From IMG/VR virus record IMGVR_UViG_3300010430_000038, positions 1 through 58,651 of that record: DNA of 58,651 nucleotides. One strand, 5' to 3'. The DNA is from a virus. The translations under genes and the position numbers were made by a program. A model generated the notes under the pieces. The model was not told the origin of the DNA. It was given only the letters and a program-made list of their open reading frames with translations, and made no database searches. Below, piece after piece: positions 1 to 58,651 of this stretch (the first letter of the stretch is position 1; each line of letters begins with the position of its first letter).

Positions 1-1169
1 ATGGAATAGCGACAAGGCAATTTTTTACGATAGCTGAAGGTAGTACGTATACCGTATCATTCTGGGCCAGAGCTTTAGTATCAACTAGACTCGTTCGTTT
101 TGACCTCGGTGACGGGTCAGTTGAGGATATATATGTTAATGTCACTGATGATCTTCAACGGTATTCAGGTCAATTTGTAGCAGGTGCACAAAACTGGTTA
201 GACATAACAAATGTTACATTATCATCAGGGACTATATATGTGTGGGGATTTCAGGTAAATGAAGGTACTGAACTCTTACCCTATACAAGAACAGAAGCCG
301 TACAAGTGCATGGTACAGGCCCAGAAAGTGGACTTGCTGTAAATCACAGCGCTATATTTTCCACAATAGCAGCACCTAATTATTCTGAAGGTACAGTATT
401 TTATGATGATGGTGATAAAGCATTATCATATTATAATGAGGATAGTAATGTCACAGTCGGCATAGGTCGTGATCTGCTTGTAAGAGTTCAGAATGATCAA
501 GGAACAACTATTTCAAGCGGTGAAGCAGTTTATATAAACGGTAGTGCTTCTGGTCTTCCAACGGTAAGACTTGCAAGGTCAGATAGTTTGGCTACTTCGC
601 AAGTTGCTGGAATTGTTAACGAGACATTAATTCTTGATGGTGAAATAGGATATATATCAGCATTCGGACTTATTGAGTTTTTAAATACGTCTTCATGGCT
701 AGTTGGTGATCAATTATATTTGAGTTCAACTGTTGCGGGAGCATTAACAAAGTTTGCACCAGCATCTCCGAATCATATTGTTAGCGTTGCACATACTGTT
801 ACTTCTGATTTAATTGTGGGTTCGATTCAAGTCCACACACCTGAAAGAATAGTTTCGGATGGACTTAAACGCCTTTCTTTTGCAGCAACAACCACAACAG
901 GAACATTAGGCCAGTCGGGTATCTACGCATACACAGCAACAGGCGCTCCAGTGACATTAACCCTTTCAACATTAACACTTGCACTCGGAAGTCTAACGGA
1001 GGTAGTGGAATTTATTGTTATTGATGAGGCTGGAGGCTGTGGTACTAATACGTTGACATTAGATACAGAAGGCACAGCAAAAATTAACGGTCTGGACACG
1101 TACCTGTTAGATACAGATAACGCCTCTGTGACGATGTACACCAACGGTGTTAACTATTTCATTATCTGA
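1..1169 (+). CDS. C-terminal part of large fibre-like virion protein
   Basis: The frame is open from base 3 to the TGA at 1167-1169, with no start at its left edge. It continues in register the frame that begins at 56854 and leaves the right end of the window; joined, they give about 988 residues. The first 80 residues resemble a carbohydrate-binding beta-sandwich (YTVSFWAR, then NWLDI and YVWGFQVNEGTE). The next stretch (residues about 150-290 of this part) resembles the small beta domain of capsid-cement and fibre proteins. It sits between portal and prohead protease genes, so it could be a head fibre rather than a tail fibre. The first methionine downstream (240) is only an internal codon. 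Confidence 0.75.
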   Translation, partial: GIATRQFFTIAEGSTYTVSFWARALVSTRLVRFDLGDGSVEDIYVNVTDDLQRYSGQFVAGAQNWLDITNVTLSSGTIYVWGFQVNEGTELLPYTRTEAVQVHGTGPESGLAVNHSAIFSTIAAPNYSEGTVFYDDGDKALSYYNEDSNVTVGIGRDLLVRVQNDQGTTISSGEAVYINGSASGLPTVRLARSDSLATSQVAGIVNETLILDGEIGYISAFGLIEFLNTSSWLVGDQLYLSSTVAGALTKFAPASPNHIVSVAHTVTSDLIVGSIQVHTPERIVSDGLKRLSFAATTTTGTLGQSGIYAYTATGAPVTLTLSTLTLALGSLTEVVEFIVIDEAGGCGTNTLTLDTEGTAKINGLDTYLLDTDNASVTMYTNGVNYFII

Positions 1170-1184
1170 AATTAGGAGACAAAA

Positions 1185-3083
1185 ATGTCATATAATTTTA
1201 CACCCGAACAGGGACAAAGAATTTACCGATCCAATACAACTGGTATAATTTCTGACACAAGGAATATCTTAGAGATTGACCCCGGTGACGACACTAAAAT
1301 AAAAGTGAAAGCCCCTTACACATTAGTAACAGTTGATGTATCTGTGCCTTCTGCTATTACAGAGTCAAAAATGGAGGTGCCAATCACAGCGGGTATTGTC
1401 CATAACATTCCTCCGGGGTTTACCTATTGGATAGGTGTTAAAGATGACGGAACTGGACAACCTGAATATGAGTATCATTTTACGTTGGAAGAGTACGATC
1501 TAACTGTATTTGGTATTCTTGGCAAAGCATTTACTGATGAAGTTGTGCCTTTGCAGTTGAGTTCTGTTTTTGGAAATTTCTGGTGGTTTGGCTATAACTT
1601 TGGAAAAACGCTTTATGATTTCGCAAACTCACGGGCTACATCTTTCAGGATAGCAGATGGTGGGGTAACGCTCACCCCTGGAACTCTTTTATATACAAGG
1701 GAAGCTGGTATTTTTTGGCGATTTATGGGATATAACAGTCTATCGGAGCCAAACAAGGGGCTTGATCCTCAGACAGCAGTTACTCAGTATTTCACTTACT
1801 CAAGCTCAGGGCCATTTGAAGATCTACCAGCATTTGAAGTGGGGTTTATTGATGACGGTGCTGGTGGTAAAACCGCTATTGGTGCGGATCAGTGGTCAAT
1901 ATATAAAGTGTATCATTATGGTTCTTCAAATTTTGAAGGGGCGCAGCGAGGAAAGCAGGCCTACAACTCACTAAACGAGGCGCAGACTAGGCAGGGCGAA
2001 GAGGATACAGAGGTAAATCCTGATAACACTAATGCAGCATTTACGCACATTGCATTTGTTAAGGGGGATGCCACTGATATAACAAACACAGAGCAAGTTG
2101 TATTTCAAGCTGTTGATAATCTTTTGTCATCGTCGGGTGATCCCCTTGTGGCTTCACTAAATGAGTCCGGTATAGTTTCTTGGACTAACCCTGACATACT
2201 AACAATTAATGGCGGCGATGCTGCAACGTTTGATACCGTAGAATTTAGGATTGGTAGTGTAGACCGTACCGGAGATATTATCCGATTTATAAGAACTGTA
2301 CCAGCTACCACAGGTAATACTTTACCCGACATTTCCAATAATCCGTTCTCATATATAGCATATAATATTAGCACAAAAGCGCTTATAACTTCGAAAGAAC
2401 CATTCACTAGAATAGTACTTGATAACGAAATACCAATTGGTCGATTATGGCACAGAAATAATCTTGTTATCGACAGCGCTCAGACGATGCCAATGGTTAA
2501 CGAAACTAGCCATGATTACGCCGGTCAGCTATTGGCCTTTTCTGCACTAAGACAAGACAATGTACTTCTTACGCCAAACGGTACTAATTTAAAAGTTGAT
2601 ATGGTGGATTTTGTTTTAGAAGTTTTAGGTGGTACATCAACAAACAGAAACCTCGTCAACATAGCTCAACCCGCAGGTGGAGTGGGCTTCTCTTTTACTC
2701 CTGTTCACAGGTCAGCCGGCCAAGGCAAAGTAGTTTTCGATACGGTTGTTAGTGATATTGATTTTACCGTGTTTGATGATGGCAGTGGAACGCTTGCACC
2801 TTTGAGCAACAATACACAATTTGGCATACATTACTTTTGTATATTCCCATTCAGAACGTCTTTCGATGTGTTTCTAATTCGTGCAGACAGAGAGTATGGC
2901 ACATTATTGGATGCTCAGGCAGGACTTTCAACAAATCCAATCACCCCATTCACTGACTTTGATGGTGGTCTATGTTTTGGGGCAGTCGTTGGTAGGAAGA
3001 ATACGCTTGATATAACCGCTGGTATTGCGGGTGACTATGTCTCTATACACGGATCTAACAGGTTTGGATCTTTTGGGGCATGA
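1185..3083 (+). CDS. large structural (fibre-like) protein, unknown
   Basis: A 632-residue protein preceded by TAGGAG 7 bases before the ATG. It is rich in beta-prone, Gly/Thr/Asn/Asp-containing sequence and has no signal peptide or membrane segment. I recognise no catalytic motif. It lies directly downstream of the 988-residue fibre-like protein and upstream of the prohead protease, inside the head module. I infer a virion surface protein (head fibre, whisker or tail fibre). Base composition here is richer in GC than in the capsid genes that follow, which fits a recently exchanged host-interaction gene. Confidence 0.6.
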   Translation: MSYNFTPEQGQRIYRSNTTGIISDTRNILEIDPGDDTKIKVKAPYTLVTVDVSVPSAITESKMEVPITAGIVHNIPPGFTYWIGVKDDGTGQPEYEYHFTLEEYDLTVFGILGKAFTDEVVPLQLSSVFGNFWWFGYNFGKTLYDFANSRATSFRIADGGVTLTPGTLLYTREAGIFWRFMGYNSLSEPNKGLDPQTAVTQYFTYSSSGPFEDLPAFEVGFIDDGAGGKTAIGADQWSIYKVYHYGSSNFEGAQRGKQAYNSLNEAQTRQGEEDTEVNPDNTNAAFTHIAFVKGDATDITNTEQVVFQAVDNLLSSSGDPLVASLNESGIVSWTNPDILTINGGDAATFDTVEFRIGSVDRTGDIIRFIRTVPATTGNTLPDISNNPFSYIAYNISTKALITSKEPFTRIVLDNEIPIGRLWHRNNLVIDSAQTMPMVNETSHDYAGQLLAFSALRQDNVLLTPNGTNLKVDMVDFVLEVLGGTSTNRNLVNIAQPAGGVGFSFTPVHRSAGQGKVVFDTVVSDIDFTVFDDGSGTLAPLSNNTQFGIHYFCIFPFRTSFDVFLIRADREYGTLLDAQAGLSTNPITPFTDFDGGLCFGAVVGRKNTLDITAGIAGDYVSIHGSNRFGSFGA

Positions 3084-3150
3084 TGATGTAGGTTGCTGAT
3101 TTTTCAATGGCAGTTTAATAAAACAATTAATTTAAGGAGAGGAAAGAACA

Positions 3151-3509: not shown

Positions 3510-3776
3510 ATGAGTTGTATTGTTGAAATTAACACAGTTGAGACAATGAATATGGTTTGTTCTTCAGAATGTGGATTTCTTAAAAATCCAGATAATTCAG
3601 TAAGGATAAATAAAGCTGAGGTTCAAAGTTATGAGCCAATGGATGTACCTCCAAGCTACGAGATACATTTCACAATGAAAAATGGCATGGTGATTATTTG
3701 GACATTCCTAACAATGACAGCAAGAGACACAGCACTTGCTAATGTAGATGAAGAAATGAATACACAAACAGTATAA
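3510..3776 (+). CDS. hypothetical protein
   Basis: An 88-residue protein with an AAAAAGGAG site. It is the last gene before a GC-rich hairpin at 3784-3799. No family recognised. Its position suggests it is co-expressed with the fibre-like genes. Confidence 0.55.
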   Translation: MSCIVEINTVETMNMVCSSECGFLKNPDNSVRINKAEVQSYEPMDVPPSYEIHFTMKNGMVIIWTFLTMTARDTALANVDEEMNTQTV

Positions 3777-4029: not shown

Positions 4030-4971
4030 ATGAATAAAAAAATATCTTTTCATTTTCAACCTAATATTCAAGAAAGAAGTCCAATTGGATCTAATAGTTT
4101 AGTCAGTACTATGCTAGTTGAAAAAGAAATAGATGGTAAAAAAAGAAGATATTTTGAGGGGGTATCGTCTGGATTAAAAGAAGATGCACATAAAGAAAGA
4201 ATGAGCGAAAAAGCTGTTTGTAAGTTTATGGAGCAAGCAAATTCTGGTGATATTTTATTGTATCCAGATATCCATGGGATTAAACAAAGTGAGGATATAG
4301 GTATATTAGAAAAAGGGGAAATCAATAAGTCTGGTGACTGGTGGACAAGTTACAGACTTTATGATGAATATGATGATCCAGGACAATACAAACTAGAGAA
4401 AATAAATAATTTGTGGAAGCAATCTTTAGGTTTACCCCCTTACAGAAAGCCTAAACAAATGGGATTTTCCATAGAGGGGATTATACCAGAAAATGGAATA
4501 ATAATGACAGCTAAAGGAGATACTGTTCTTGATGATATTATGCTTGATGGTGTTGTATTAGTGCCACGTCCAGCTTATATGACTAGCATTGCAAACGCTG
4601 TGTATAAAGCTTTGGATGTATTACCTCCTTGGAGAGAGAAAATAACTCAGGACAATATAAATGGAAAATTAGATAAAGTATTAAAAGATAAGGAACTAAA
4701 AGATAAATACTGGTCAAAAAAGTTTGATGTGCAAGATGCATTAGAAAAATCTGTTAATGAAGTTATGGTTGACAAATGGGATATGAAAACTGAAAGACTT
4801 GGAATTATCTTTGATGAATATAAATTTGCAATGATGAATTTAGTAGCTGAAAGTGAAACTGTTTTTAAGAATAAAACACTAGCTAAAGAAGAAAGAAATA
4901 AAAACCAAGTTTACAAAGATCTTGTAACAGAACTTGGAGAACTTCAAAAATCTTTTGCAAGGAGGCTGTAA
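4030..4971 (+). CDS. prohead protease
   Basis: A 313-residue protein at the canonical position before scaffold and major capsid protein. The N-terminal 190 residues look like a phage prohead/maturation protease: a VSSGLKEDAHKERMSEKAV segment, then GFSIEG, and the family-typical block LDGVVLVPRPAYMTSIANAV near residue 170. Such enzymes cleave scaffold and capsid subunits during head maturation. The C-terminal 100 residues are charged and helical and may be a scaffold-like tail. ATAGGAG precedes the start. Confidence 0.75.
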   Translation: MNKKISFHFQPNIQERSPIGSNSLVSTMLVEKEIDGKKRRYFEGVSSGLKEDAHKERMSEKAVCKFMEQANSGDILLYPDIHGIKQSEDIGILEKGEINKSGDWWTSYRLYDEYDDPGQYKLEKINNLWKQSLGLPPYRKPKQMGFSIEGIIPENGIIMTAKGDTVLDDIMLDGVVLVPRPAYMTSIANAVYKALDVLPPWREKITQDNINGKLDKVLKDKELKDKYWSKKFDVQDALEKSVNEVMVDKWDMKTERLGIIFDEYKFAMMNLVAESETVFKNKTLAKEERNKNQVYKDLVTELGELQKSFARRL

Positions 4972-4972
4972 A

Positions 4973-5680
4973 ATGGCTGAAGAAAAAGAAGTAAAAAAAG
5001 GAACAATAACAAGTCAAGAAGTTGCAGTGGTTAACAACATACAAGCATTGCTAAATGAATTGTTAGCTATGGGAGCAATTGATGATACAACATTACAAGA
5101 CCCAAAAGAAAGTATGCCAAAGGAGGAAAAAATGGCAAAAAAAGAAGAATACATGGATGATAATAAAGAAGATAAAATGACTGAAAAAGGTATTGAAAAA
5201 TCTCCAACAGATGGAACTACTGCAAATGATAAAGCAGAGGAAAAGATAGTTGGGGATATACCAGAAGAGTCAAAATCAAATATGGACTCAGTTGCTAAAG
5301 CATTAGAATTTTTAATAGCCCAAAATAAAGAAGCACAAAAAAGTACTGGGGAAGACAAAATTGCGGCTGCATTATCTGAATTAACAAATGTTGTTAAATC
5401 TATTAGTAAAAGACAAGATGAATCTGAAAATGTTCTTAGTGATGTTTTAAAAGGACTTGGAGTTGCTGATGAAATATTAAAAGTTGAAAAATCAGTTGAA
5501 AAGGATAAACCTGTTAGAGATAATTCAGAACTAAAAGAAACAATGGATTATATTAAGAAGGCATTAGGGGAACGTAAAGAAGTAACTGAAGAAGAGTATA
5601 TTTACAAAGGAAGCAATCATGAGCAAGTTCAAAAGGGAATAACTTCTTGGTTGCCAAAAGCTGTACAGGAGGACAAATAA
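4973..5680 (+). CDS. capsid scaffolding protein
   Basis: A 235-residue, very acidic and lysine-rich, mostly helical protein between protease and capsid genes, as expected for an internal scaffold removed during maturation. The start was chosen at 4973 because AAGGAGG lies 7 bases upstream; the longer frame from 4934 would start inside the protease gene. The last bases carry the AGGAGG site for the capsid gene. Confidence 0.7.
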   Translation: MAEEKEVKKGTITSQEVAVVNNIQALLNELLAMGAIDDTTLQDPKESMPKEEKMAKKEEYMDDNKEDKMTEKGIEKSPTDGTTANDKAEEKIVGDIPEESKSNMDSVAKALEFLIAQNKEAQKSTGEDKIAAALSELTNVVKSISKRQDESENVLSDVLKGLGVADEILKVEKSVEKDKPVRDNSELKETMDYIKKALGERKEVTEEEYIYKGSNHEQVQKGITSWLPKAVQEDK

Positions 5681-5681: not shown

Positions 5682-7085
5682 ATGAATAGTTTAATTAATC
5701 AATACAATAAATATAGAGAAAGCAATCTATTACAAAAAGCACTTACCTCAGCAACTGGAGTTGGTGAAGCATTAATCCCTCAAAATTTAGAGAAAGAGAT
5801 TACAAATACTATTATCAGGCTTAGTCCTGAAATGGCATTAGTTTACATGAAAAAAATTGCAGGTAAAACACATGAATTCAACCGTTTAACAGCACTTCCA
5901 AGAACAGGTGGTGCAATGGGCGAGGCAGCAAGTACTATTACTTCAAATTCACAAACAATAAGAGACAATGTACAACTTAAGATTATAAGAAGAAAAGGAG
6001 AAATTACAAATTTCTTACAAGATACTTCACAAGAATACATTGATGCAGCAGCGTATGAGACAGAGAATTTACTGCAACAGCATATATATGATCTTATAAA
6101 CACTATTGTGTACGGTAATGGTACTGCTAATCCATATGAATTTGATGGTCTTGATACATTGATTTCTACAAATAGACTTTTACCAACTGATAGGTACGGA
6201 GACACTCTTGCAGATCTTTCAACTTTTGACACAATGATTGATAAATCAAATAGAGCAGGAGGAGCTAGACACAAAAGATGTTTAATAATGTCCCCTGAAC
6301 TATTATCAAAAACTTCTCAATTATTAGACAACGTAAGACTTAACCAAGGTTTATTACAAGGGGGACTTACTCAGGTAAATATAAATGGTGGTTGGAGATT
6401 GAATGCGTATAGGGATATACCAATTATTGAATCAACAGGAACACGACCTACTAATGAAGATACTGCTCTAACTACCTATTATGGTACTCTTGGAAGTTCA
6501 ACAGCTGCTACTGGTGGTACTGTTGCAGCGGATACTTATTATATTCAAATTGCAGCTGTTACTGAAGAAGGGGAACAACTAGCAAGTGCGGAAATTACAC
6601 AAGTAACAACAGGAACTACTTCAACATTAACAATCACATGGGAATTTGTAGCAAATGCATACAGATATAAGATATATTCTAGTGGAACAACTAGTGTAGA
6701 TAAAACTCTTGTAAGAGTAGTAGCAGCAGATGAATACAATGCCGTTGGTACAATAACAGGTAAAACAGAATCTTATACATTTCTAACTAACCCATTAGCA
6801 GCAGATACAAGTGTACCTACTTCAATGCAATCTGATGTACAACTTGAAAAAGAAACAGCCCATGACGTACCTGAACAAGTTTTCTTGTGGGACTTAGATC
6901 CTATTCAAGGTCTTGGTAAAGTACCTTTTACAAATTCAGGTGGATCCCGATTCAGTGGAATTGTTACAATTGAACAACTTGCAAGAACAGACGATAATAT
7001 ACCAATGTTGATTAAATCTTATTTGGCTTTAACTCCATCTTTTGAAAGAACATCAATATACAAACGTGGTGTAAGGACAGCATAA
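5682..7085 (+). CDS. major capsid protein with inserted domain
   Basis: A 467-residue HK97-fold-like capsid subunit. The N-arm and E-loop region are followed by a conserved stretch around residues 110-260 (TIVYGNGTANPYEFDGL; AGGARHKRCLIMSPELL) and a C-terminal P/A-domain block near residues 390-460. Between residues about 262 and 380 lies an extra Thr/Ala-rich beta domain (TYYIQIAAVTEEGEQLAS, ANAYRYKIYSSG) typical of Ig/FN3-like insertions that project from capsids. It follows the scaffold by one base and overlaps the next start by one. Confidence 0.85.
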   Translation: MNSLINQYNKYRESNLLQKALTSATGVGEALIPQNLEKEITNTIIRLSPEMALVYMKKIAGKTHEFNRLTALPRTGGAMGEAASTITSNSQTIRDNVQLKIIRRKGEITNFLQDTSQEYIDAAAYETENLLQQHIYDLINTIVYGNGTANPYEFDGLDTLISTNRLLPTDRYGDTLADLSTFDTMIDKSNRAGGARHKRCLIMSPELLSKTSQLLDNVRLNQGLLQGGLTQVNINGGWRLNAYRDIPIIESTGTRPTNEDTALTTYYGTLGSSTAATGGTVAADTYYIQIAAVTEEGEQLASAEITQVTTGTTSTLTITWEFVANAYRYKIYSSGTTSVDKTLVRVVAADEYNAVGTITGKTESYTFLTNPLAADTSVPTSMQSDVQLEKETAHDVPEQVFLWDLDPIQGLGKVPFTNSGGSRFSGIVTIEQLARTDDNIPMLIKSYLALTPSFERTSIYKRGVRTA

Positions 7086-20930: not shown

Positions 20931-22847
20931 ATGTTAAATCATCATAATCCAAAATATAGTGGCGGTGTACCTCTTGCTATTGGTGACAGATACTATGCCC
21001 AGGATATGTTCAGAGATATGAGATATTATCAATTTCAATTAGGGCAAACAGTAGAAAAAATTGTAGGTACAAATACTGCCATATTAGACGGACTAGTAGT
21101 AAGCCAAGGAACAGGACACACAATTGATATAACCGCAGGTATGGGCATTGTGCCATTTTTAGTTGACATTGTTGATAGAACTGCTACATGGGCATTGCCA
21201 CCTGACGTTGAACAAGTTGACATAAATATGTTTCTAACTCTTGAAACAGGTTTAAATAATTGGGGCATAGTAGGTGTGACCACTGACGGAGCAACAACCA
21301 ATTATGTGAAACTTGCTTATTTTGAATCGGATCAAAACACAAGGACAAGGATAAAATCCTCTGGTACATATTCATATGAAGTAAAGCCATCTTATACAAT
21401 ATCAGTTAATTCTACAGTACCTACAAGTTATCAAATAACTTTAGCAACTTTCACGACTGATGGGACAACTATTACATTTACTCATGAGGAAGATGTAAGA
21501 GTATCTAATCTTAATTATCTATCAAAATATCAGATAGCAAGTATCCCTAGTACATTAGTAAGTAATGCAAAATATCTGTCTATTGGTTTAGGTATAGATC
21601 TAACTCTTCCTGAAAAACCTATTCCTGGTGATACAGTAGAGGTATACTCCACAGACTACAACAATCAAATTATACCTAATGATGATCAAGTAATAATGTA
21701 TAATGATGAAATATGGTCTTCTATGGGCAGTAATGGAGCATTGGCCACATCAAGAGCATCCTACACATCATTAGTTTATAGAGGGATTGATGCTTTATTA
21801 GATGAAATTGGAAATATGAAACTTGATAATCCTTCAACTTTGCCTCCAGCTGATGGTCTTGGTGTTTCTTTTTCCCCAGACGGTAATTTTTTAGCTGTTG
21901 GTCATGGGATTAGCCCTTTTGTAACCATATATAGTATTTCAGGTACCACTTTCACAAAAATCACTAACCCTGGAACATTGCCAGCAGATGATGGTAGGGA
22001 TGTAGCATTTTCTCCAAACAGTGATTTTTTAGCTGTTGCTCATTTTACTAGCCCTTACATTACTATATATAGTATTTCAGGTACCACTTTCACAAAATTA
22101 ACTAATCCTGGGACATTACCTACTGGAAATAGTAGGGGTGTAGCATTTTCCCCAGATGGTAATTTTTTAGCCGTTGCTCATACCACTAGTCCTTATGTAA
22201 CTATATACAGTATTTCTGGAACTACATTCACAAAAATTACAAATCCTGCAACATTACCTAGTCTTACAGGTTACGATGTAGCATTTTCTCCAAACAGTGA
22301 TTTTTTAGCTGTTGCTCATGATCTAAGTCCTTATGTAACTATATACAGTATTTCTGGAACTACATTCACAAAAATTACAAATCCTACAATATTACCTACT
22401 GGTGGTGGTTTTGGGGTTTCTTTTTCTACTGATGGTAATTTTATGTCTGTTGCTCATGATCTAAGTCCTTATGTAACTATATACAGTATTTCTGGAACTA
22501 CGTTCACAAAAATTACAAATCCTGCAATATTGCCTACTGGTATAGGTAATGGAGTTTCTTTTTCCTCAGACAGTGATTTTTTAGTTGTTTCTCATAACAC
22601 TACACCTTATATTACTATATATAGTATTTCTGGAACTACATTCACAAAAATTACAAATCCTACAACATTACCTACAAATACTGCTAAAAGGAGCAGATTT
22701 TCACCAGAGGTTAATTTTTTAGCTGTTGCTCATTTTAATAGTCCTAATGTTACTATATATAGGAACTTAGTAAATAATGAGAATATATGGAATGTGTTAA
22801 GTATCGATGTTAAAAATGGAGAGACGATAGCAGATTTATTCACTTAA
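20931..22847 (+). CDS. tail fibre with seven-repeat beta-propeller
   Basis: A 638-residue protein. The N-terminal 290 residues look like a fibre or baseplate-attachment region (HHNPKYSGGVPLAIGDRYYA at the start). The C-terminal part (residues about 297-628) holds seven repeats of about 46 residues, each with FSPDGNFLAVAH, then SPYVTIYSISGTTFTKITNP. Seven repeats of this size are what a closed seven-bladed WD40-like propeller needs. The position after J and I proteins and before lysis genes supports a receptor-binding role. AAAAGGAG precedes the start. Confidence 0.75.
   Translation: MLNHHNPKYSGGVPLAIGDRYYAQDMFRDMRYYQFQLGQTVEKIVGTNTAILDGLVVSQGTGHTIDITAGMGIVPFLVDIVDRTATWALPPDVEQVDINMFLTLETGLNNWGIVGVTTDGATTNYVKLAYFESDQNTRTRIKSSGTYSYEVKPSYTISVNSTVPTSYQITLATFTTDGTTITFTHEEDVRVSNLNYLSKYQIASIPSTLVSNAKYLSIGLGIDLTLPEKPIPGDTVEVYSTDYNNQIIPNDDQVIMYNDEIWSSMGSNGALATSRASYTSLVYRGIDALLDEIGNMKLDNPSTLPPADGLGVSFSPDGNFLAVGHGISPFVTIYSISGTTFTKITNPGTLPADDGRDVAFSPNSDFLAVAHFTSPYITIYSISGTTFTKLTNPGTLPTGNSRGVAFSPDGNFLAVAHTTSPYVTIYSISGTTFTKITNPATLPSLTGYDVAFSPNSDFLAVAHDLSPYVTIYSISGTTFTKITNPTILPTGGGFGVSFSTDGNFMSVAHDLSPYVTIYSISGTTFTKITNPAILPTGIGNGVSFSSDSDFLVVSHNTTPYITIYSISGTTFTKITNPTTLPTNTAKRSRFSPEVNFLAVAHFNSPNVTIYRNLVNNENIWNVLSIDVKNGETIADLFT
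21826..22795 (+). repeat. seven tandem ~138-bp coding repeats
   Basis: Seven tandem repeats of roughly 138 bases encode the propeller blades. The segment encoding YSISGTTFTKITNP is nearly identical at the DNA level in repeats 2-6, suggesting recent duplication or gene conversion. The last repeat is degenerate and loses the YSISGTTF block. Confidence 0.85.
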
Positions 22848-28601: not shown

Positions 28602-30134
28602 CTAACCTTGTTTTGTTGTATCGTCAAAATAATCACTTAATGCATCAAAAGGAAGTGTCCATGCCCTTATTTTTGCTTGCTTATCAGGTATGTAGTATCT
28701 TTCAGATACAGCTTTCATATTTTTTAGTCTGGAATGTATTTCAGTTGTGTTGTAGTTTTTAAAGTTTTTTTGGTATATTAAAAAATTAACTAAATTTTTA
28801 GCCCTAAACACGTAACATTCCTTTTCTGTATCCTTATAAACTCTTCCTATTAGTATTTGATCTTTATTTTTTGCCTGTGCTCTATCCTCAAAAAATTCTA
28901 TTAGCAAATCTATGAACACACTCCTTGAGCTTATTTCATCTTCTTTGCTCACTTCTTTTATAATTATATTCTCTAGGGCAGTATCTACTATACTTTTCCA
29001 ATTAAATTCTTTTAATCTGAGAGGGTAAATACGTAATTCTCTGAAGCATAACTCCTGAAATCTTTTTTGATTAATTATATCCCCCTCACTGTAAAACATT
29101 AAACTTTTTCCATTGATTATCCATTCGTAGTATGGAGGATCAGTTCTGTATTGAATAAAATCTTCAAAATTAAGTTGGCTTACATAACTTCCCCCTATAC
29201 CATACTCTCTTTTTTTGCATTCTGACCTATTGCATAATGACAAAAGAGGTTCTTGAGCACAATTATAACTGTAGTCTTTCTTCATATGACTGGAAATTAC
29301 AGTCTTTTGAAGTCTTTCTATAGTTATTGGTTCCAACAATTCGTTGTTAGCGTCACTTATCCTATGTTCAAAATCATCTCCATACTTTGCTTTATAATAT
29401 CTCGCTAAACTAAATAAATATTGATTTCTAAAATTTGTGTTTTTTTGCAAATATATAGACTGTAAACATGGTGGAGCATCGTTTAATGGAATTTCATCAA
29501 AAACCTGTTCAAATGAATCTGCTCTCATTACGTTGCTTCTAATTATATCCAATGATTCTTCAAATAGGATAGGTTCCCCATTTTTTCCAATAAGATATCT
29601 ATTTGTCTCATAAGCATTGAAATAAGGTAAATTTATCCAACTACCTACTTGATCTTTTTTAAGTATAGTTTGTTTTGGAAATACTTCTGTTTTGTCTGAT
29701 AACCCTAATATTGTGAGCAATTTTTTCATATACCCTATTGCTTTTTTTGCTTTAATTGGATTATCAAAAAATAAATATAGATGTAACCCCCCACTTTTTG
29801 ATCTAAAAGGCAATAAAGGTATTTTGTTGGCATAGATACTCTCTATAAATGAATGATGGTCAGATTTATAATCATCAACATCTATAACACAAAATTTACA
29901 TTCATTGTTTTCATCTATAGGGATAATACCTAATCCCTTTATTCCTTCCAAATGATCAGAATATTCTATTTCTGTAAGTAGTCTCTTTTTAGTAGTATTC
30001 TTTCCCCTTAATTTTTCTATAGTAGTAGTATCCGTATTATCCGAAGTTTTATCTTCTATGTGTGTTCCATAGGCACTTTTATTTCCTTCAAATATTTTTC
30101 GATACTCATTTATCTGAATTACTGAAATAGTCAC
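28602..30134 (-). CDS. archaeo-eukaryotic-type primase (TOTE-like AEP), long form
   Basis: A 510-residue protein. The N-terminal 200 residues carry an AEP primase core: CVIDVDDY (D85, D87), SKSGGLHLYLFF (H118) and GSWINLPYF. The remaining 300 residues contain four to five Cys (PLLSLCNRSECKK near 300) possibly binding zinc, and a C-terminal region typical of primases with accessory domains. It would prime DNA synthesis for the family A polymerase. A shorter paralogue of the core lies at 32248-32838. Confidence 0.75.
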   Translation of the reverse strand: MTISVIQINEYRKIFEGNKSAYGTHIEDKTSDNTDTTTIEKLRGKNTTKKRLLTEIEYSDHLEGIKGLGIIPIDENNECKFCVIDVDDYKSDHHSFIESIYANKIPLLPFRSKSGGLHLYLFFDNPIKAKKAIGYMKKLLTILGLSDKTEVFPKQTILKKDQVGSWINLPYFNAYETNRYLIGKNGEPILFEESLDIIRSNVMRADSFEQVFDEIPLNDAPPCLQSIYLQKNTNFRNQYLFSLARYYKAKYGDDFEHRISDANNELLEPITIERLQKTVISSHMKKDYSYNCAQEPLLSLCNRSECKKREYGIGGSYVSQLNFEDFIQYRTDPPYYEWIINGKSLMFYSEGDIINQKRFQELCFRELRIYPLRLKEFNWKSIVDTALENIIIKEVSKEDEISSRSVFIDLLIEFFEDRAQAKNKDQILIGRVYKDTEKECYVFRAKNLVNFLIYQKNFKNYNTTEIHSRLKNMKAVSERYYIPDKQAKIRAWTLPFDALSDYFDDTTKQG

Positions 30135-32247: not shown

Positions 32248-32838
32248 TCACTTCTTAATTTTTGTATCTTTAATAATCTCCAAGGCTTTTTCAAAAATAA
32301 CTTCTTTGTTATTTTTTCCAATCAGATACCTTTTTGTATTATAAGCATTAAAATAAGGAAGATTTATCCAACTTCCAACTTGCCCTTCTTTAAGTTTTAT
32401 TTGTTTTGGGAAAACTTCTGTGTATGATGGAAGACCTAATACAGCTAAAAAATTCTTCATGCTATTCACAGCTTTTTCAGCACTAATAGGTGTATGAAAA
32501 AACAAATATAAATGCAACCCACCACTTTTTGATCTAAACGGTAACAGAGATATTGAATTATTGTCATATAACCTTTCAATTAATGGAGTGTGGTCAGTTT
32601 TATTGTCGTCTACATCTGCTACACAAAATTTACATTCGTTGTTTTCATCTATAGGGACTATTCCCAAACTTTGTTCACCATTTAAATGTTTACGATATTC
32701 TTTTTCTGTGAGCAATTTATTTATGGTGGATGATCTACCTCCTAACTTATCTTTATTTTCTATGTATGTACCATACACACTATTGTTTCCCTCAAATATT
32801 TTTCTATATGTATTTAATATATCCCAATTAGTTCCCAT
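32248..32838 (-). CDS. short AEP primase paralogue
   Basis: A 196-residue protein that matches residues 1-205 of the primase at 28602-30134 almost throughout: CVADVDD (D75, D77), SKSGGLHLYLFF (H109), GSWINLPYFNAY. All AEP metal and histidine positions are kept. It ends where the core ends, so it is a free-standing catalytic domain without the zinc and accessory regions. It is the product of duplication in the same operon. Confidence 0.75.
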   Translation of the reverse strand: MGTNWDILNTYRKIFEGNNSVYGTYIENKDKLGGRSSTINKLLTEKEYRKHLNGEQSLGIVPIDENNECKFCVADVDDNKTDHTPLIERLYDNNSISLLPFRSKSGGLHLYLFFHTPISAEKAVNSMKNFLAVLGLPSYTEVFPKQIKLKEGQVGSWINLPYFNAYNTKRYLIGKNNKEVIFEKALEIIKDTKIKK

Positions 32839-37814: not shown

Positions 37815-37941
37815 CAATTAAAAAAGTATATTTTTGCTTTTTGATAGAATATTTCAAAAACAAATTATAAATTTTTACACCCTGAGCAACGCAGCAGGGA
37901 TGACAGACTAAGCAACGCAGTAATCTGTTATTTGTGGAATA

Positions 37942-37956
37942 GGAGAATCGAACTCC
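37942..37956 (-). ncRNA. orphan T-arm after tRNA-like element
   Basis: A T-arm (GGAG-TTCGATT-CTCC on the minus strand) follows directly the 3' end of the element at 37958-38065. Its downstream bases TTCCACA can pair with TGTGGAA at about 38116-38122, on the other side of that element, so it may belong to an outer tRNA-like unit that encloses it. Confidence 0.35.
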
Positions 37957-37957
37957 A

Positions 37958-38065
37958 AGTAACAACTGGAATCGAACCAGTGACGCGAGGGATTTTAAGT
38001 CCCCTCAATTAAGTAAATTAAAAGGACTGAAAAGCCCTCCGCTCTACCAACTGAGCTACGTTACA
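37958..38065 (-). tRNA. unusual tRNA with two anticodon-like arms, tRNA-Leu(UAA)-like
   Basis: The acceptor pairs GTAACG with TGTTAC. The D-arm GCTC-AGTTGGTA-GAGC and T-arm ACTGG-TTCGATT-CCAGT are canonical. Between them are two hairpins: AGGGC/GTCCT with loop TTTTCA, and GGGGA/TCCCT with loop CTTAAAA (anticodon TAA, Leu). The first is an extra segment of about 33 bases. The D-arm and short variable region are class I, unlike normal tRNA-Leu. Confidence 0.5.
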
Positions 38066-38125
38066 TCGTCTTAATTTATACGTATACTTATTTATTAAGA
38101 CGTACACCTTGCTATTTCCACATAT

Positions 38126-38185
38126 TTAGAGAAATGGGAATTGAACCCATCTAAACCGTCGTTTATTTCACCAGAAATTCCCTAA
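38126..38185 (-). ncRNA. 60-nt tRNA-like element without D-arm
   Basis: An eight-base acceptor TTAGGGAA/TTCTCTAA (one G-U) and a perfect T-arm ATGGG-TTCAATT-CCCAT. Only 27 bases lie between acceptor and T-arm, too few for both D and anticodon arms; they include ATTTC/GAAAT pairing and a GACGGTTTA stretch also seen in the next element. Confidence 0.45.
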
Positions 38186-38202
38186 CCTCGAAGTAGCCCA
38201 AT

Positions 38203-38269
38203 TATCAATGACAAGGGAATCGAACCCTTTAAGCCGTCACTTACTTAACAACCATAAGTTGCATTGATA
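38203..38269 (-). ncRNA. 67-nt tRNA-like element, Asn-like loop
   Basis: A perfect eight-base acceptor TATCAATG/CATTGATA and T-arm AAGGG-TTCGATT-CCCTT. The space holds one arm only, ACTTAT/GTAAGT, whose loop includes TTGTTAA (an Asn GUU-type anticodon loop). No D-arm can form. The linker carries GACGGCTTA. Confidence 0.45.
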
Positions 38270-38291
38270 TAGTCGGAGTACTTCATTTATT

Positions 38292-38360
38292 GCTACTAAT
38301 TGGATTCGAACCAATAACTTCTCTTCCTAGGAAAGAGACATTCCCACATTTAATAGTAGC
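38292..38360 (-). ncRNA. 69-nt tRNA-like element with central CTA
   Basis: A perfect seven-base acceptor GCTACTA/TAGTAGC and T-arm ATTGG-TTCGAAT-CCAAT. The anticodon-like arm has a six-base stem TCTCTT/AAGAGA and a seven-base loop TCCTAGG, which would place CTA at 34-36 but lacks U33. There is no regular D-stem in the 15 bases before it. Confidence 0.45.
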
Positions 38361-38458
38361 ACCAAAGCCAGTTTCTCCCAAGTCTGGCAAGGCCATAGAT
38401 TTGCCATTTTCACAATTAGCCTCATTGTTAATCATGTATAATCGTAACCTACTCTGCT
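38361..38458 (-). other. gap between tRNA-like elements
   Basis: It holds two hairpins, TGGCAA/TTGCCA and GCCAG/CTGGC, but no T-arm or acceptor pair. The similar gap at 38580-38731 holds CCATT/AATGG enclosing GTAAC/GTTAC. These may be decayed or still more divergent elements. Confidence 0.3.
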
Positions 38459-38579
38459 TGACGATGGTGGGATTTGATACCCACATGAGTATAAATCCGT
38501 TTGTTTAACGTGTACGGCGCACCTCTAACACACTATACTCTCAGTTACTTTAGCGTATAACCCTTCCGCCACATCGTCA
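38459..38579 (-). tRNA. 121-nt tRNA-like element, Leu/Ser-like D-arm
   Basis: A perfect eight-base acceptor TGACGATG/CATCGTCA, a D-arm GCG-(11)-CGC resembling class II tRNAs, and a T-arm GTGGG/CCCAC with an eight-base loop. The middle is expanded to about 75 bases; it contains GAGTATA pairing with TATACTC and an inner GTGT/ACAC. A possible anticodon loop CTGAGAG (GAG, Leu) is not supported by a good stem. Confidence 0.4.
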
Positions 38580-38731
38580 CATAGTCTATTCCTATTAGTC
38601 AGCTTACTTTTCCAGTATCGATAGGTGGTAGGTAATAAGCTCTACGAGGGATTTACACTTAAAGACACCCCACCCATCCCATTACAAGGTAACTTGTTAC
38701 AATGGTCACAATTCGTTTAGTGTTGCCAATC

Positions 38732-38826
38732 GTTGCTACATGGACTCGAACACATTTTATTAGTTTCATTAACTTACTTTCTTCGGAAGTAAGTTTTGCT
38801 AATAACGCTCCTACTGCAATAGCAAC
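38732..38826 (-). ncRNA. 95-nt tRNA-like element with 9-bp anticodon-like stem
   Basis: A perfect seven-base acceptor GTTGCTA/TAGCAAC. The anticodon-like hairpin is AACTTACTT/AAGTAAGTT with loop CCGAAGA (central GAA). The normal stem is five base pairs. The T-arm (TTCGAGT loop) is imperfect. A small TTA/TAA arm could be a variable arm. Confidence 0.4.
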
Positions 38827-38896
38827 ACTCCCCGCATGTGGATTCCGCCACATGGTTAACGGTCGGGACAACCGTGTTATTGTCTCTCCTGAGTTA

Positions 38897-38917
38897 TTCC
38901 CTTACTCCAAAAGGGAA
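38897..38917 (-). ncRNA. anticodon-arm-like hairpin, 7-bp stem
   Basis: TTCCCTT/AAGGGAA with seven-base loop TTGGAGT (GGA at 34-36, U33 present). It lies downstream of an orphan T-arm at 38927-38943 and is not enclosed by a clear acceptor stem. Confidence 0.3.
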
Positions 38918-38926
38918 ACATATCAC

Positions 38927-38943
38927 CAAGGAATCGAACCTTG
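38927..38943 (-). ncRNA. orphan T-arm
   Basis: A perfect T-arm CAAGG-TTCGATT-CCTTG on the minus strand with no matching acceptor strand found nearby. Confidence 0.35.
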
Positions 38944-38972
38944 ACTTTTCATACCAATCCTAAACAACCGAT

Positions 38973-38987
38973 CTGGAATCGAACCAG
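38973..38987 (-). ncRNA. orphan T-arm
   Basis: CTGG-TTCGATT-CCAG on the minus strand, six bases after the end of the element at 38994-39083. No partner acceptor strand was found. Confidence 0.35.
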
Positions 38988-38993
38988 CACTTT

Positions 38994-39083
38994 CGCCGAG
39001 GCAAGAATCGAACTTGCTCACCAATTTCATTATATTTCGTCAAATATAGTTACGTTGCGCTCTACTCATTGAGCTACTCGGCA
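38994..39083 (-). tRNA. tRNA-like element with canonical D- and T-arms
   Basis: The acceptor TGCCGAG/CTCGGCG, D-arm GCTC-AATGAGTA-GAGC and T-arm GCAAG-TTCGATT-CTTGC are all regular. The anticodon region is 41 bases and instead of a normal arm contains the long hairpin TATATTT-GACG-AAATATA. No standard seven-base anticodon loop can be placed, so the amino acid is not assignable. It starts 6 bases after the stop of the gene at 39090. Confidence 0.5.
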
Positions 39084-52890: not shown

Positions 52891-54474
52891 TTGAATTTTG
52901 ATGTTGCTAACAAATATTTAGAAGTGACTCATCACCCACTATATTTGGCTGTAAATCATCACATGACACATAAAAATGAACATATGTCCTTTAAAGATTT
53001 TCCTTTTCTGATTGATATATACAAAGATAAATCTAAGAACAAAGTTATAATGAAGTCGACTCAGTCTGGAATAACAGAGTTTTTAATTGTATTGGTCATG
53101 GACAAAGCCAAGTTTCAAAAAAGAAACATATTTTATGTTATGCCGACTGAGAAAATAAAAAATCAATTTATAAACACAAGATTTGACCAATCTGTGCAAT
53201 ACACTCCTTTATATAGGGGTATCTTCAAGGAATCTAGTTATAACAACATGAGTGTTAAGCAAGTTGGGGATGCCTCTATATTTTTTGCAGTATCTAACAG
53301 TAGGAGTAATTTTATATCATTTCCTGCGGATGATTTAATTATAGATGAGGAAGATGAGTGTAATCCTGATAATTTGGAAATGGCTCCAGAAAGACTTGCC
53401 ATGTCTTCTGATCCACAAGAAATAAGAGTAGCGAACCCAACTTATCCAGATTTTGGGATTGACTTTCAATGGAAAAAGTCGGATAAAAAACATTGGTTTG
53501 TTAATTGCAGTTGTGGACACAAATTTATACCGGACTTCTTTGCTCATGTGGTGAGACAAGAAAAAGAAGACGAGTACACAATTTTAGACCAGAGGTTCAA
53601 TCCATTAAAAGAAGATGACGTAAGAATGATATGTGACAAATGTCATAAACCAACGTACAGGTATTCCAATGGCGAATGGGTCAATGAAGTACAATCCTAC
53701 ATAAGTGGAAGGCAATTGAGTCAATTGTTTAGTTCCAGGAAACCGATAAGAAAAATTGTTAATCAATTTAATGAAGCGTTGACTAATGAAATAAAAATGC
53801 AACGTTTTTATAACGGTACTTTGGGTCTACCATACCTTGGTAGCGGAGCACAAATTACTGATGAAATGATAAATGACTGTATCCAAGATTACATGTTACC
53901 AAAGGGATGTAAACACCCATGCGTAATTGGCATAGACGTCGGAAAGAAATTGCATACAGTTATTTTTCGTTTAATAAATGATTATGGGCAGTGCAAAATG
54001 CAGTTGGTTTTTGCAGGAGAATTGTATTTTACTGTGACTAAGAATTCTATTGATATATCTGAATTGGTAGATCTTAACAAAAGATTTAACATAAAAGCAG
54101 GAATAATTGATGCTAGACCAGAGTCTCGATTGAGTAGGATGATATGTCAAAATTTTCCTAAGATATGGAGAGGAGACTATTTGACAGAAAATCCAAAAGA
54201 TCAATTGGATATTCCAAATAAAATATACAAGACTGATAGAACTGCTTCAATGGACGGAGTAAAAGAGCAGATGATATTATGTAATCTTATGTTTCCTAAA
54301 AACATAGGAAGGGTTCCTGGGTTCAAAGATCAGTTGAAAGCTCCTATAAGAGTATTTGAGGAAAAAGAAGGAACCAATGGACGTTGGTGCTGGAGGGAAG
54401 GCTATAAATCAGATCATTACTTCCATGCGGTAAACTACGCTAATATTGCTAAGAAATTATTGTTGAGTACATAG
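52891..54474 (+). CDS. terminase large subunit (GpA-like)
   Basis: A 527-residue packaging ATPase-nuclease. Walker A is the GpA-type KSTQSGIT (residues 55-62) and Walker B LIIDEED (149-155). A zinc pair CSC (206/208) and CDKC (248/251) lies between ATPase and nuclease. The nuclease has D349 (IGIDVGKK), D407 (IIDARPES) and D508 with H512 (KSDHYFHAVNYA). The start is TTG with AAGGACG upstream. Adjacent to small terminase and portal. Confidence 0.85.
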   Translation: MNFDVANKYLEVTHHPLYLAVNHHMTHKNEHMSFKDFPFLIDIYKDKSKNKVIMKSTQSGITEFLIVLVMDKAKFQKRNIFYVMPTEKIKNQFINTRFDQSVQYTPLYRGIFKESSYNNMSVKQVGDASIFFAVSNSRSNFISFPADDLIIDEEDECNPDNLEMAPERLAMSSDPQEIRVANPTYPDFGIDFQWKKSDKKHWFVNCSCGHKFIPDFFAHVVRQEKEDEYTILDQRFNPLKEDDVRMICDKCHKPTYRYSNGEWVNEVQSYISGRQLSQLFSSRKPIRKIVNQFNEALTNEIKMQRFYNGTLGLPYLGSGAQITDEMINDCIQDYMLPKGCKHPCVIGIDVGKKLHTVIFRLINDYGQCKMQLVFAGELYFTVTKNSIDISELVDLNKRFNIKAGIIDARPESRLSRMICQNFPKIWRGDYLTENPKDQLDIPNKIYKTDRTASMDGVKEQMILCNLMFPKNIGRVPGFKDQLKAPIRVFEEKEGTNGRWCWREGYKSDHYFHAVNYANIAKKLLLST

Positions 54475-54715: not shown

Positions 54716-56260
54716 ATGTCAAGAAAAACCAAGAAAAAGAAAAAAATAAATAAGACATTCAATATTAAACCATCCGAAAGACATATTGACTCTCCTTTAG
54801 TGATGCCAGAACGTCAACGTGGTGCTCAAATTTGGAACTTGTCTGACTTAATCAACATACAGGCAAGAAATAAACAGGGCGATCTACAGTCAGCCCCTTC
54901 AGACAATCCTTTATTCATATTAGATCCCGAAGAAAGACACAGAATGTTTCAATTGTCTTCTCCTGTGTTTGGTGTTATTACAGGTAGAATGAACCGTATA
55001 TCAGGATTAGAATTTGAAATTGTTCCTGATACTAAAGAATTGGAAGACAAAGAAGAAAGTTATAAAAACGCATATGACATTATTAAAGAATATGAAACAC
55101 TTGTAGGTGTAGCACAGGTTATAACTAGATCAAAACTTAGACAATATTTGTTAAATGAACTACCTACATTGAGACCAGATCTTCAAAATTTCAGACAAGC
55201 ACTAATAAGATGGAAAAAAGGTGTCATGCGAGTTAGGCAAAAAGAAGCTAATGAAATTAAAGAATGGTTATTAAGACCTAATCCTATGCAGAATTGGGTA
55301 GATTTTATAAAAATATGGGTGTATGATTTAATGGTTCATGGAACTTCAGCCATATACAAAAAAATGATTGATGGAAAATTGAATAATATACAACATTTGA
55401 CAGGTGGTTCAACTGTACCGATAAGAACTCCTTATGTAGATTCGCAAGAGGCGTACATACAAGTTATGAATTATGATTATCAGGTATACTATGAAGATGA
55501 ACTTGTGTACACTCAATATTTACCTACTTCTGTAAGAAGCTATGGCATGATACCACTTGAAGCACTTATAAACAAAATAACAGAAACAATGTTCTTTGAT
55601 AGATTGATGGCTAATCAAGCAGATGGAACAAAGCCCCCTGAGAAAGCTGCAATTATAACAAGTCAGCAAGTATTTGGAGAAGATCCGGACTTCAATTTAA
55701 ACCTTGGAATGAATAAAGATGAGCAAAAACGTGTTGAAGAAAAACTAAATCAACCAATAAAGAATGGTATAATCACATTTTCTGGGAATAGTGTAGAAAT
55801 TGTAGACTTAAGTAAAGAAAACACAATGGAATTTCAACACAAGAGACAGAAAGATATACGTGAAGAAGTAGCATTGGTTTATAACATGAGTAATATTGAA
55901 GTTAACTTGACAGGATCAACGGACACTTCAGGACGTTCTACCTCAGAAATACAAAAAGAAATTGAGCAAGGGAAAGGAATTGCACCAACATTAAAAACTA
56001 TTGAACAGAAAATAAACGATGAAATATTGCCTTATCGAAAGAAAGGTTTTAAATTCAAGTTCAGTATAGAAGATAGCGAACTTAAACAAATTGAAATATT
56101 GACAAAAAAAGTAAATAGTACATTGTATACACCTAATGAGTTGAGAGTTGAGGAATTAAATAAAATGCCTTTTGATGGAGAAGAGTTTGACAAGCCAGGT
56201 GGAATAAATGATGGAAATAATGAATGGCATCCATTTTATATGCAGAATGTAGAGGAGTAA
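54716..56260 (+). CDS. portal protein
   Basis: A 514-residue protein. After a Lys-rich N-terminus come the portal-like features DEERHRMFQL-type start of the clip/wing region (LDPEERHRMFQLSSPVF), WVDFIKIWVYDLMVHG, IPLEALINKITETMF and the C-terminal stem/crown block EFQHKRQKDIREEVALVYNM. It forms the dodecameric ring for DNA entry. Gene order confirms. Confidence 0.8.
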   Translation: MSRKTKKKKKINKTFNIKPSERHIDSPLVMPERQRGAQIWNLSDLINIQARNKQGDLQSAPSDNPLFILDPEERHRMFQLSSPVFGVITGRMNRISGLEFEIVPDTKELEDKEESYKNAYDIIKEYETLVGVAQVITRSKLRQYLLNELPTLRPDLQNFRQALIRWKKGVMRVRQKEANEIKEWLLRPNPMQNWVDFIKIWVYDLMVHGTSAIYKKMIDGKLNNIQHLTGGSTVPIRTPYVDSQEAYIQVMNYDYQVYYEDELVYTQYLPTSVRSYGMIPLEALINKITETMFFDRLMANQADGTKPPEKAAIITSQQVFGEDPDFNLNLGMNKDEQKRVEEKLNQPIKNGIITFSGNSVEIVDLSKENTMEFQHKRQKDIREEVALVYNMSNIEVNLTGSTDTSGRSTSEIQKEIEQGKGIAPTLKTIEQKINDEILPYRKKGFKFKFSIEDSELKQIEILTKKVNSTLYTPNELRVEELNKMPFDGEEFDKPGGINDGNNEWHPFYMQNVEE

Positions 56261-56262: not shown

Positions 56263-56307
56263 ATGGATCTAAGAAAAGTTTTTAAAATAACTGAGATAGG
56301 AGACTAG
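56263..56307 (+). CDS. 14-residue peptide
   Basis: ATG 56263 with GAGGAG upstream encodes a short peptide whose 3' end contains the AGGAG for the next gene. Probably only a coupling spacer. Confidence 0.2.
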   Translation: MDLRKVFKITEIGD

Positions 56308-56309
56308 CA

Positions 56310-56498
56310 ATGCCAATACCAAGTCCTAAATCAGGTGAAAAAGAACAGGAATTCATATCAAGATGTGTAAGTCAAATATCGGGTGAATATAATCAAGATC
56401 AAGCAACAGCTATTTGTTACAGTAAGTATAAAAAAAGTAAGATAATGAAAGGTTTGATAGATAACACCATTAAACTTTTAAAAATAGGGGGTAAATAA
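56310..56498 (+). CDS. small conserved head-module protein
   Basis: A 62-residue protein with MPIPSPKSGEKEQEFISRC and a QATAICYSKYK segment, a short module I know from many phages where it is encoded next to portal or fused to head proteins. It ends one base into the next start (TAATG). Function unknown. Confidence 0.55.
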   Translation: MPIPSPKSGEKEQEFISRCVSQISGEYNQDQATAICYSKYKKSKIMKGLIDNTIKLLKIGGK

Positions 56499-56854
56499 TG
56501 GGATACGTTTATATGAAAGAAGTTCCTTATAATACGCAAGATGCTAAGAATTATGCGTTTGAGCTTAAATTGGAAGTAGATACAGCAACAACAACTGACT
56601 GGGTAATAATTCCAGATCAAGTGGTAGGGATAGTTGGACAAGTTAAGGTTACAGGTTCAGCAACAGCTTATGTAGAAGCAACAACATCTACACTTGCAGA
56701 GATTATAGAGGATACGGCAGTGCCGGACAAATGGCCGTTTCCAGATGTAACAACAGCTAATTCACCTGTTACACAAGAATCCTCACCTGTATCAGCAGTA
56801 AGGGGTGTAATGACTGGAACAGGAACAGCCTATTTTTCATTGAGGGTACAATAG
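56498..56854 (+). CDS. possible head decoration protein
   Basis: A 118-residue beta-rich protein (TDWVIIPDQVVGIVGQVKVT; SAVRGVMTGTGTAYFSLRV). It lies between portal and the large fibre-like protein. The stop TAG overlaps the GTG start of the next gene. A decoration role is inferred from position and beta content. Confidence 0.5.
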   Translation: MGYVYMKEVPYNTQDAKNYAFELKLEVDTATTTDWVIIPDQVVGIVGQVKVTGSATAYVEATTSTLAEIIEDTAVPDKWPFPDVTTANSPVTQESSPVSAVRGVMTGTGTAYFSLRVQ

Positions 56855-58651
56855 TGGCTGGAAGTAATTGGAAAATAACCTCCTCAAAGTTAGAAAATTA
56901 CATAGGAACAGTTTATATTAAAGGTGATGCGGTAACAGATGACAGTGTAAGATTAACTGTCAATATATCAGGTGACCTTGTATATGAAGTTTACTCAGGT
57001 GGGATATGGTCAGAAAATACAGTTAGTTTAAGTGTTGAGGATATAAGAAAACTTAATGGCATACAACCTACGGGGTTGTTAGAAGGCAGTGTTATATCTG
57101 CGACAGTTCCAGGGACAACAATAGATTGGACTTCAGGAAAAGGTCAAGTGGTTAATTACGCAGATCCAGAAAATCCTATTGTAACTGAAGTAACATGGGA
57201 TGCTGTATCAGGGTATACGCCAACTAATTTAGCTACAGATGGAACAACCATTTTTGGATATGATAGTGCAGGATCATTAGTAGAAGTGTTAACTACAGCA
57301 GTAACAATACAAGATTCACATGATTATATATTCTTTGGGTTAGTTACTCATATAAGTAGTCAAGTTATTGAGGTGCTTTCTTCTCCTGGAAATTTGGGAT
57401 ATGATGGGATAGGTTCATATAGAGACTTTATAAACCTTATTATTGGCCCTGCAAATATAGAAGGTAATGTATACAGTGCAAATGGCGCAAATCTCAATAT
57501 TGATGTAATTGGTGGGAATGCTTTTATAATTGGAGCTAATTTTAGAAACAATCCAACAATATCAGATTCAATAGCTTTAAATAGTGTGGTAGGAATAACT
57601 TTTCAGAAATTATATAGATCCGCAGATCCTAGTCTTATTATGCTAAAGGATGGAGCATCTACAACAGACATAGACCCTACCCAATATGATGATGGATCAG
57701 GTACTTTACAAAGTGTTACAGCAGGATATTGGACAATACAGAGGATATTTAGAGGGCGTACTGGAGGAACAAATGTTTCTTATGGTCAGCAGGAATTTGC
57801 TACAAAAGCCCTTGCATTAGAAGCATTAGGCGCCGAATCTTTTACAGAAAAAGATCCATTACCTTTTGAACTTTTTAGATGTTCTCTTGTAGTTTCTGAA
57901 AGCGCAACAGATCTAAGTGATACAGCAGAAGCTGAGTTTTTTGATCAGTCAAGTTTCAGAATTGGAGGAGCACGAAGTTCTAGTGCCTCTATACCAGGTG
58001 TTACAAATCCAGGAGGATCTGACGGAGCTGTACAGGTCAATGATGGAGGTACTTTTGGTGGCACTTCAAATATTTCATATTCAGGAACATCATTAGATTT
58101 TGATGATAGTACAAGTATAAAGATGGGCACTGATGATGATTTCTCTGTTGTTCATAACGGTATCAATGCAATATTTAGTAATTCAACAGGTGATGTATTT
58201 ATTGACAATACAGATCCATCTGGGAGTTTTATATTTCGACTTTTAGGTGTGTTTCCTGCTACTACACGGTTTGATATTCGTGATGAAAACAGTGCAGATA
58301 TATTTTCAGTATTAGGTACTGGTGTTGTTAAATTGCAGGATAATATTCCTTTAAGATTCGGGTCAGGGGATGATTTTACAATTATTCATAATGAAACAGA
58401 TACTCTCGTTGTTTCAAATACTGGTGATATGGAGTTCTACAATACAGATGCAACAGGATTAATCTATTTTACTTTAGGAACAGACACCGCAGATACATCT
58501 TTTCAGGTGAGAGATAATTCAAGTGTGCCACTTTTTGAAGTGTTTGGTGATGGTTCATTAAGTATCGGTATTGATCCGACTATATCAATTAATACAGAAG
58601 GAAACGTAGATTTTAAGAACTCAATATCTACGCCTTACCTTGGCTCTGGAC
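56854..58651 (+). CDS. N-terminal part of large fibre-like virion protein
   Basis: GTG 56854 overlaps the preceding stop (TAGTG). The frame is open for 599 codons to the window end and continues in register at bases 1-1169, about 988 residues in all. The first 350 residues are Thr/Gly-rich beta. Two similar units follow near residues 415-575, each with a DD-F-S/T-V/I-V/I-H-N motif and IFRL/YFTL plus RDENS/RDNSS, the repeat type of phage fibres. Its place between portal and protease suggests a head fibre. Confidence 0.75.
   Translation, partial: MAGSNWKITSSKLENYIGTVYIKGDAVTDDSVRLTVNISGDLVYEVYSGGIWSENTVSLSVEDIRKLNGIQPTGLLEGSVISATVPGTTIDWTSGKGQVVNYADPENPIVTEVTWDAVSGYTPTNLATDGTTIFGYDSAGSLVEVLTTAVTIQDSHDYIFFGLVTHISSQVIEVLSSPGNLGYDGIGSYRDFINLIIGPANIEGNVYSANGANLNIDVIGGNAFIIGANFRNNPTISDSIALNSVVGITFQKLYRSADPSLIMLKDGASTTDIDPTQYDDGSGTLQSVTAGYWTIQRIFRGRTGGTNVSYGQQEFATKALALEALGAESFTEKDPLPFELFRCSLVVSESATDLSDTAEAEFFDQSSFRIGGARSSSASIPGVTNPGGSDGAVQVNDGGTFGGTSNISYSGTSLDFDDSTSIKMGTDDDFSVVHNGINAIFSNSTGDVFIDNTDPSGSFIFRLLGVFPATTRFDIRDENSADIFSVLGTGVVKLQDNIPLRFGSGDDFTIIHNETDTLVVSNTGDMEFYNTDATGLIYFTLGTDTADTSFQVRDNSSVPLFEVFGDGSLSIGIDPTISINTEGNVDFKNSISTPYLGSG

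Follow-up and report, generated by a model that had tools for sequence, protein, structure and literature searches.

A viral contig from a relative of Leptospira phages LE3 and LE4 was probably cut within its fibre region, with ends that are neighbours but do not abut

The window analyzed here, a stretch of 58,651 nucleotides (IMG/VR record IMGVR_UViG_3300010430_000038), is very probably the contig of a near-complete phage related to Leptospira phages LE3 and LE4, cut by the assembler in the fibre region and left with ends that are neighbouring but not abutting. That the ends do not abut is almost certain. The initial annotation had described a phage map, very likely complete, opened inside a fibre gene; a near-complete map and its opening in the fibre region stand, but the meeting of the ends within a single gene is unsupported, given a left end that coincides with the start of another contig, the lack of a k-base overlap, and the absence of about 43 domain residues and a head-morphogenesis gene. 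In-phase open reading frames at the ends of a contig are thus insufficient to call a phage map complete: gene order makes these ends neighbours, yet the base-exact common start, the truncated domain and the missing universal gene indicate that a piece is absent.

The genes at the two ends, listed from the right end of the window across to the left, are as follows.

52891..54474, plus strand: large terminase, gpA type (Pfam GpA_ATPase, E 2e-19; phrog_675, E 2e-86)
54716..56260, plus strand: portal protein (Pfam Phage_portal, E 1e-17; 36% identity to the LE3 portal)
56295..56495, plus strand: small protein with a GEKxxxFVSRC motif (profile match, E 2e-15), found after the portal in many relatives
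56498..56854, plus strand: 118-aa protein before the fibre gene (profile match, E 4e-19)
56854..58651, plus strand: tail-fibre gene, N-terminal 599 codons, running off the right end (tailspike and tail-fibre matches)
1..123, plus strand: stretch identical to the start of contig L002, putative branch vertex
3..1169, plus strand: tail-fibre gene, C-terminal 388 codons (phrog_20556 baseplate protein, E 8e-5)
1185..3083, plus strand: 632-aa fibre-associated protein, forming with the preceding half-gene a module common to L002
3151..3480, plus strand: 109-aa protein separating the module from the conserved block (no match in PHROG or Pfam)
3510..3776, plus strand: 88-aa protein at the position of the relatives' head-morphogenesis gene (no Pfam match)
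4030..4971, plus strand: conserved gene, hereafter the 4030 gene; putative prohead protease, by position
4934..5680, plus strand: conserved protein encoded after the 4030 gene and before the capsid gene; putative scaffold, by position
5682..7085, plus strand: major capsid protein (phrog_212, E 3e-17; 46% identity to LE3/LE4)

Scans with capsid and portal alignments yielded about 70 related loci. The window's portal protein, the last gene of the conserved block ahead of the fibre insertion, shares 34–58% identity with its counterparts across 52 viral loci, and the terminase lies upstream of the portal in the relatives as well. In every locus that has both genes (50 loci in 42 distinct records, or 36 clusters when the intervening gene is grouped at 90% identity, LE3 and LE4 included), the portal precedes the homologue of the 4030 gene, and the order of portal upstream of 4030 gene and capsid gene is the one that the window shows over the join. 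Since the window carries the portal towards its right end and the 4030 gene towards its left, its linear sequence corresponds to a circular map opened between these two genes. The window is therefore a nearly complete map of a phage, circularly permuted, and its ends are neighbours on the circular gene map.

The closest comparison is with LE3 and LE4 (Nylescharonvirus), in which the portal, 4030 gene, capsid, sheath-like, tail and baseplate genes share the order and strand of their counterparts in the window, with 22–47% protein identity; the portal, capsid, sheath-like and baseplate genes are thus both homologous and collinear. The window differs in carrying a fibre cassette between the portal and the 4030 gene and in lacking the head-morphogenesis gene that LE3 and LE4 have, and the window's terminase gave no match in LE3. 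The longer relatives mostly measure 46–55 kb compared with 58.7 kb for the window, so little is probably missing elsewhere in it. No relative was found in the bacterial and archaeal genomes searched with the capsid alignment. If the window were only part of a larger linear genome or of a prophage, its ends would not be neighbours and the absence of a terminal repeat would be accounted for; we consider this very improbable, as the genes for terminase, portal, capsid, tail and baseplate fall into the relatives' order once the ends are joined and the long relatives are mostly smaller than the window.

The reading frame across the ends is as initially described: from GTG at 56854 the frame is open through 58651, which is codon position 1 (the preceding 1,797 bases make 3 × 599). 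The codon over the junction, C (58651) plus AT (bases 1–2), would be CAT (His), and the joined frame runs to TGA at 1167–1169, for 989 codons including the stop. Each end of the window holds a single long open frame. Agreement in phase is weak evidence of contiguity, because, for any two truncated genes of like orientation, the phases agree by chance one time in three. No direct terminal repeat was found between the ends at any length from 1 to 399, nor any k-mer overlap or common 12-mer compatible with overlapping ends. Neither end recurs elsewhere in the window, so a repeat internal to the genome was rejected as the reason for the break.

The two half-genes differ somewhat in composition (G+C 0.36 at the right end and 0.40 at the left; 0.18 vs 0.25 at third positions), which fits a mosaic gene and two separate genes alike. 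Among the homologues compared, no protein matched both halves. The L006 fibre was considered as a bridge, but it matches in the DDF repeats and its C-terminus then differs; the fibres of Roseobacter phage CRP-6, Nitrincola and others match the C-terminal part only. Structure prediction for the left half was uninformative (mean pLDDT 32).

The left-end half-gene begins inside a truncated carbohydrate-binding-like domain. Here the caution in the initial annotation was well placed: Pfam CBM_4_9 matches over profile positions 59–120 of 136 only, at 17.5 bits, below the curated cut-off of 25.9 for a whole domain. With a profile built from four complete homologous domains in L010, the match begins at profile position 53 of 151, at residue 10, which leaves about 43 N-terminal residues of the domain missing; adding the tail of the right-end frame does not fill them. 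At least about 130 bp, the start of this domain, would thus be missing between the ends. A gap was rightly anticipated as a possibility, but it may far exceed 30–40 codons, and it need not be a multiple of three bases.

The origin of the left end is suggested by a second contig, L002 (IMGVR_UViG_3300010430_006794; 6,197 bp), whose first base is exactly the first base of the window. The two are identical over bases 1–123 and mismatch at base 124; beyond this point they share about 90% identity as far as window base 3135 and are then unrelated. The module so delimited (window 1–3135, L002 1–3136) comprises the fibre half-gene and the 632-aa protein, at 90.5% nucleotide identity over the module. 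Long identical runs between the two contigs are not unique to the start, the longest of the others being 94 bp. If mismatches were evenly scattered at the rate seen beyond base 123, the first 123 bases would be clean with a probability of about 2e-6; the coinciding starts are nevertheless the stronger point. Among other viral contigs, the start sequence is present in L002 alone.

In published JGI-style MEGAHIT k-lists the largest k is 123 (PMC6243002, PMC6081815, PMC5839234), and joinable MEGAHIT contigs have an end sequence of maxK length in common (PMC10914622). The value of 123 for the window's own assembly is taken from these papers on other JGI-style assemblies. Because the exact identity with L002 equals this largest published k, base 1 is most likely a branch vertex of the de Bruijn assembly graph at which two phages with a common fibre module separate. 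The breakpoints described for MEGAHIT and metaSPAdes in the COBRA paper (PMC10914622), where repeats or regions common to two genomes break contigs, are alike, with exactly maxK bases in common and then divergence; here the breakpoint is deduced from the contigs. A physical genome end (cos site) common to the two phages was rejected: the end interrupts both an open frame and a domain, and identity covers exactly 123 bp before dropping to about 90%.

The cut would then fall in the tail-fibre region that separates the portal from the prohead genes. The window's left end would mark the branch at which a fibre module recently shared by two phages can no longer be resolved, and its right end a second break in the same region. 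The window's last 26 bases have no exact match in viral_contigs, where a sibling contig for the right end was not found. As the right end does not carry the 123 bases that an adjoining contig would have, at least one further stretch should lie between the ends. A complete circular map opened in one fibre gene, with ends abutting exactly and nothing missing, would agree with the absence of a stop where the frames join and with the conserved gene order spanning the join. We find it scarcely credible in view of the lack of a k-base overlap, a left end shared with L002 to the base, the truncated domain and the missing head-morphogenesis gene.

The last of these has a fixed place in the relatives. 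All 50 loci (42 of 42 records, and all 36 clusters at 90% identity) have the head-morphogenesis gene downstream of the portal and upstream of the 4030 gene, and homologues of the 4030 gene follow the head-morphogenesis gene directly or at a short distance. In the relatives this gene corresponds to phrog_2468, which has no match in the window. The best E-value of a head-morphogenesis profile run over the whole window was 0.45, compared with 1e-53 to 1e-100 in leave-one-out controls. Three of the 36 related records likewise lack a phrog_2468 match, and all three contigs end at or near that interval. The set of core morphogenesis genes expected in a complete circular contig is therefore short of this one gene, and the LE3/LE4-like arrangement with head morphogenesis between portal and 4030 gene is not seen in the window; the gene may lie in the gap.

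We consider it more probable than not that the gap spans at least a kilobase and holds the head-morphogenesis gene; the half-frames would then belong to two different fibre genes. The arrangement we moderately favour places the head-morphogenesis gene in the gap, with the right-end fibre gene upstream and a second, left-end fibre gene downstream of it. As to precedents, L012 and L053 have fibre-type genes in the slot between portal and head morphogenesis, and L017, L058 and L089 have unrelated insertions of 1.7–6.5 kb in the slot that runs from head morphogenesis to the 4030 gene; a fibre module in this second slot was seen in no relative. By eye, the insertion of about 6.5 kb in L058 (12242–19690) includes a ThyX-like gene.

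The opposite sub-case of the broken-contig explanation is a single fibre gene of about 1,030 codons, with about 130 bp (a multiple of three) missing and the head-morphogenesis gene lost to the fibre module. Both halves are fibre-like and in phase, only about 43 domain residues are missing, the cassette sits exactly at the expected position of the head-morphogenesis gene, and one insertion-replacement would explain the layout. None of the 42 related records with a complete interval has lost the head-morphogenesis gene, however, and in-phase ends arise by chance in one case of three; we hold this reading to be a serious but minority possibility. Its biological corollary, one giant fibre gene whose exchanged module replaced the head-morphogenesis gene, with capsids assembling without it, seems rather unlikely. 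The weights placed on the gene-in-gap arrangement, the short gap and exact abutment are judgements and were not computed.

Residues 73–380 of the right-end fibre match phage tailspike and tail-fibre proteins (E to 3e-15), and the same domain is found in such proteins of Streptomyces, Flavobacterium and Stenotrophomonas phages; DDFxxxHN repeats come next, with 55% identity in L006. The left-end part has a module that several phages, marine and freshwater, also carry in their fibre genes. From their family, the proteins of the fibre region may function in host binding. Roseobacter phage CRP-6 (MK613348) resembles the window in its succession of terminase, portal and a protein of about 120 aa, followed by a fibre gene whose C-terminal module is the same (36%), but the N-terminus of its fibre and the remainder of its genome have no match to the window. 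Homologues of the 118-aa protein come after the capsid gene in relatives and after the portal in the window, a difference of slot implying that the cassette has probably moved; this suggests that the 118-aa protein and fibre cassette moves between two slots. The pair of 118-aa protein and fibre cassette is seen after the capsid gene in the relatives L012, L015, L020, L021 and L025.

L002 itself shares with the window the C-terminal half of the fibre, the 632-aa protein (94% identity) and the start base, but is otherwise an unrelated phage with its own gp3-type packaging gene downstream. The 632-aa protein had no match in 50,697 phage records, and the left half had none in 20 other records, in a search run without a positive control. 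The G+C content of the left module is 0.40–0.42, compared with about 0.32–0.35 in the conserved genes. We weighed the possibility that the left 3.1 kb is a chimera, the fibre module of another phage attached by the assembler. A module common to an unrelated phage, higher in G+C, unmatched in that same uncontrolled search and located where a universal gene is expected would be in keeping with such an error. The module is only 90% identical to that of L002, however, and so is a separate copy; no k-sized identity between window and L002 exists at its right edge; and mosaic fibre modules are common in phages. A chimera is accordingly improbable. The biological point is a fibre module common to two unrelated phages. 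For other contigs, comparing starts with those of sibling contigs for identity of exactly k bases, followed by an audit of the interval for universal genes, offers a check that requires no reads.

Several features elsewhere in the window deserve mention. A tRNA gene at 37957–38065 (minus strand; Rfam, 46 bits; unreported by ARAGORN) has an anticodon loop enlarged by about 36 bases, an intron-like insertion that, by eye, could fold as a hairpin (AGTCC...GGACT). It lies in a cluster of tRNA-like elements (37940–39083, minus strand), some of them degenerate with only the TPsiC arm clear. One member with anticodon CUA (‘Pyl’ in ARAGORN; Rfam, 35.5 bits) could be an amber suppressor; TAG remains the stop codon of 9 of the 53 listed open reading frames that have one. 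An archaeo-eukaryotic primase domain of the AEP-TOTE family occurs twice on the minus strand (28602–30134 and 32248–32838; 62% identity), one copy inside a 510-aa protein and one alone. Finally, a 638-aa beta-propeller protein (lactonase/WD40-like; 20931–22847, plus strand), encoded where the tail gene block ends, is a possible receptor-binding protein.
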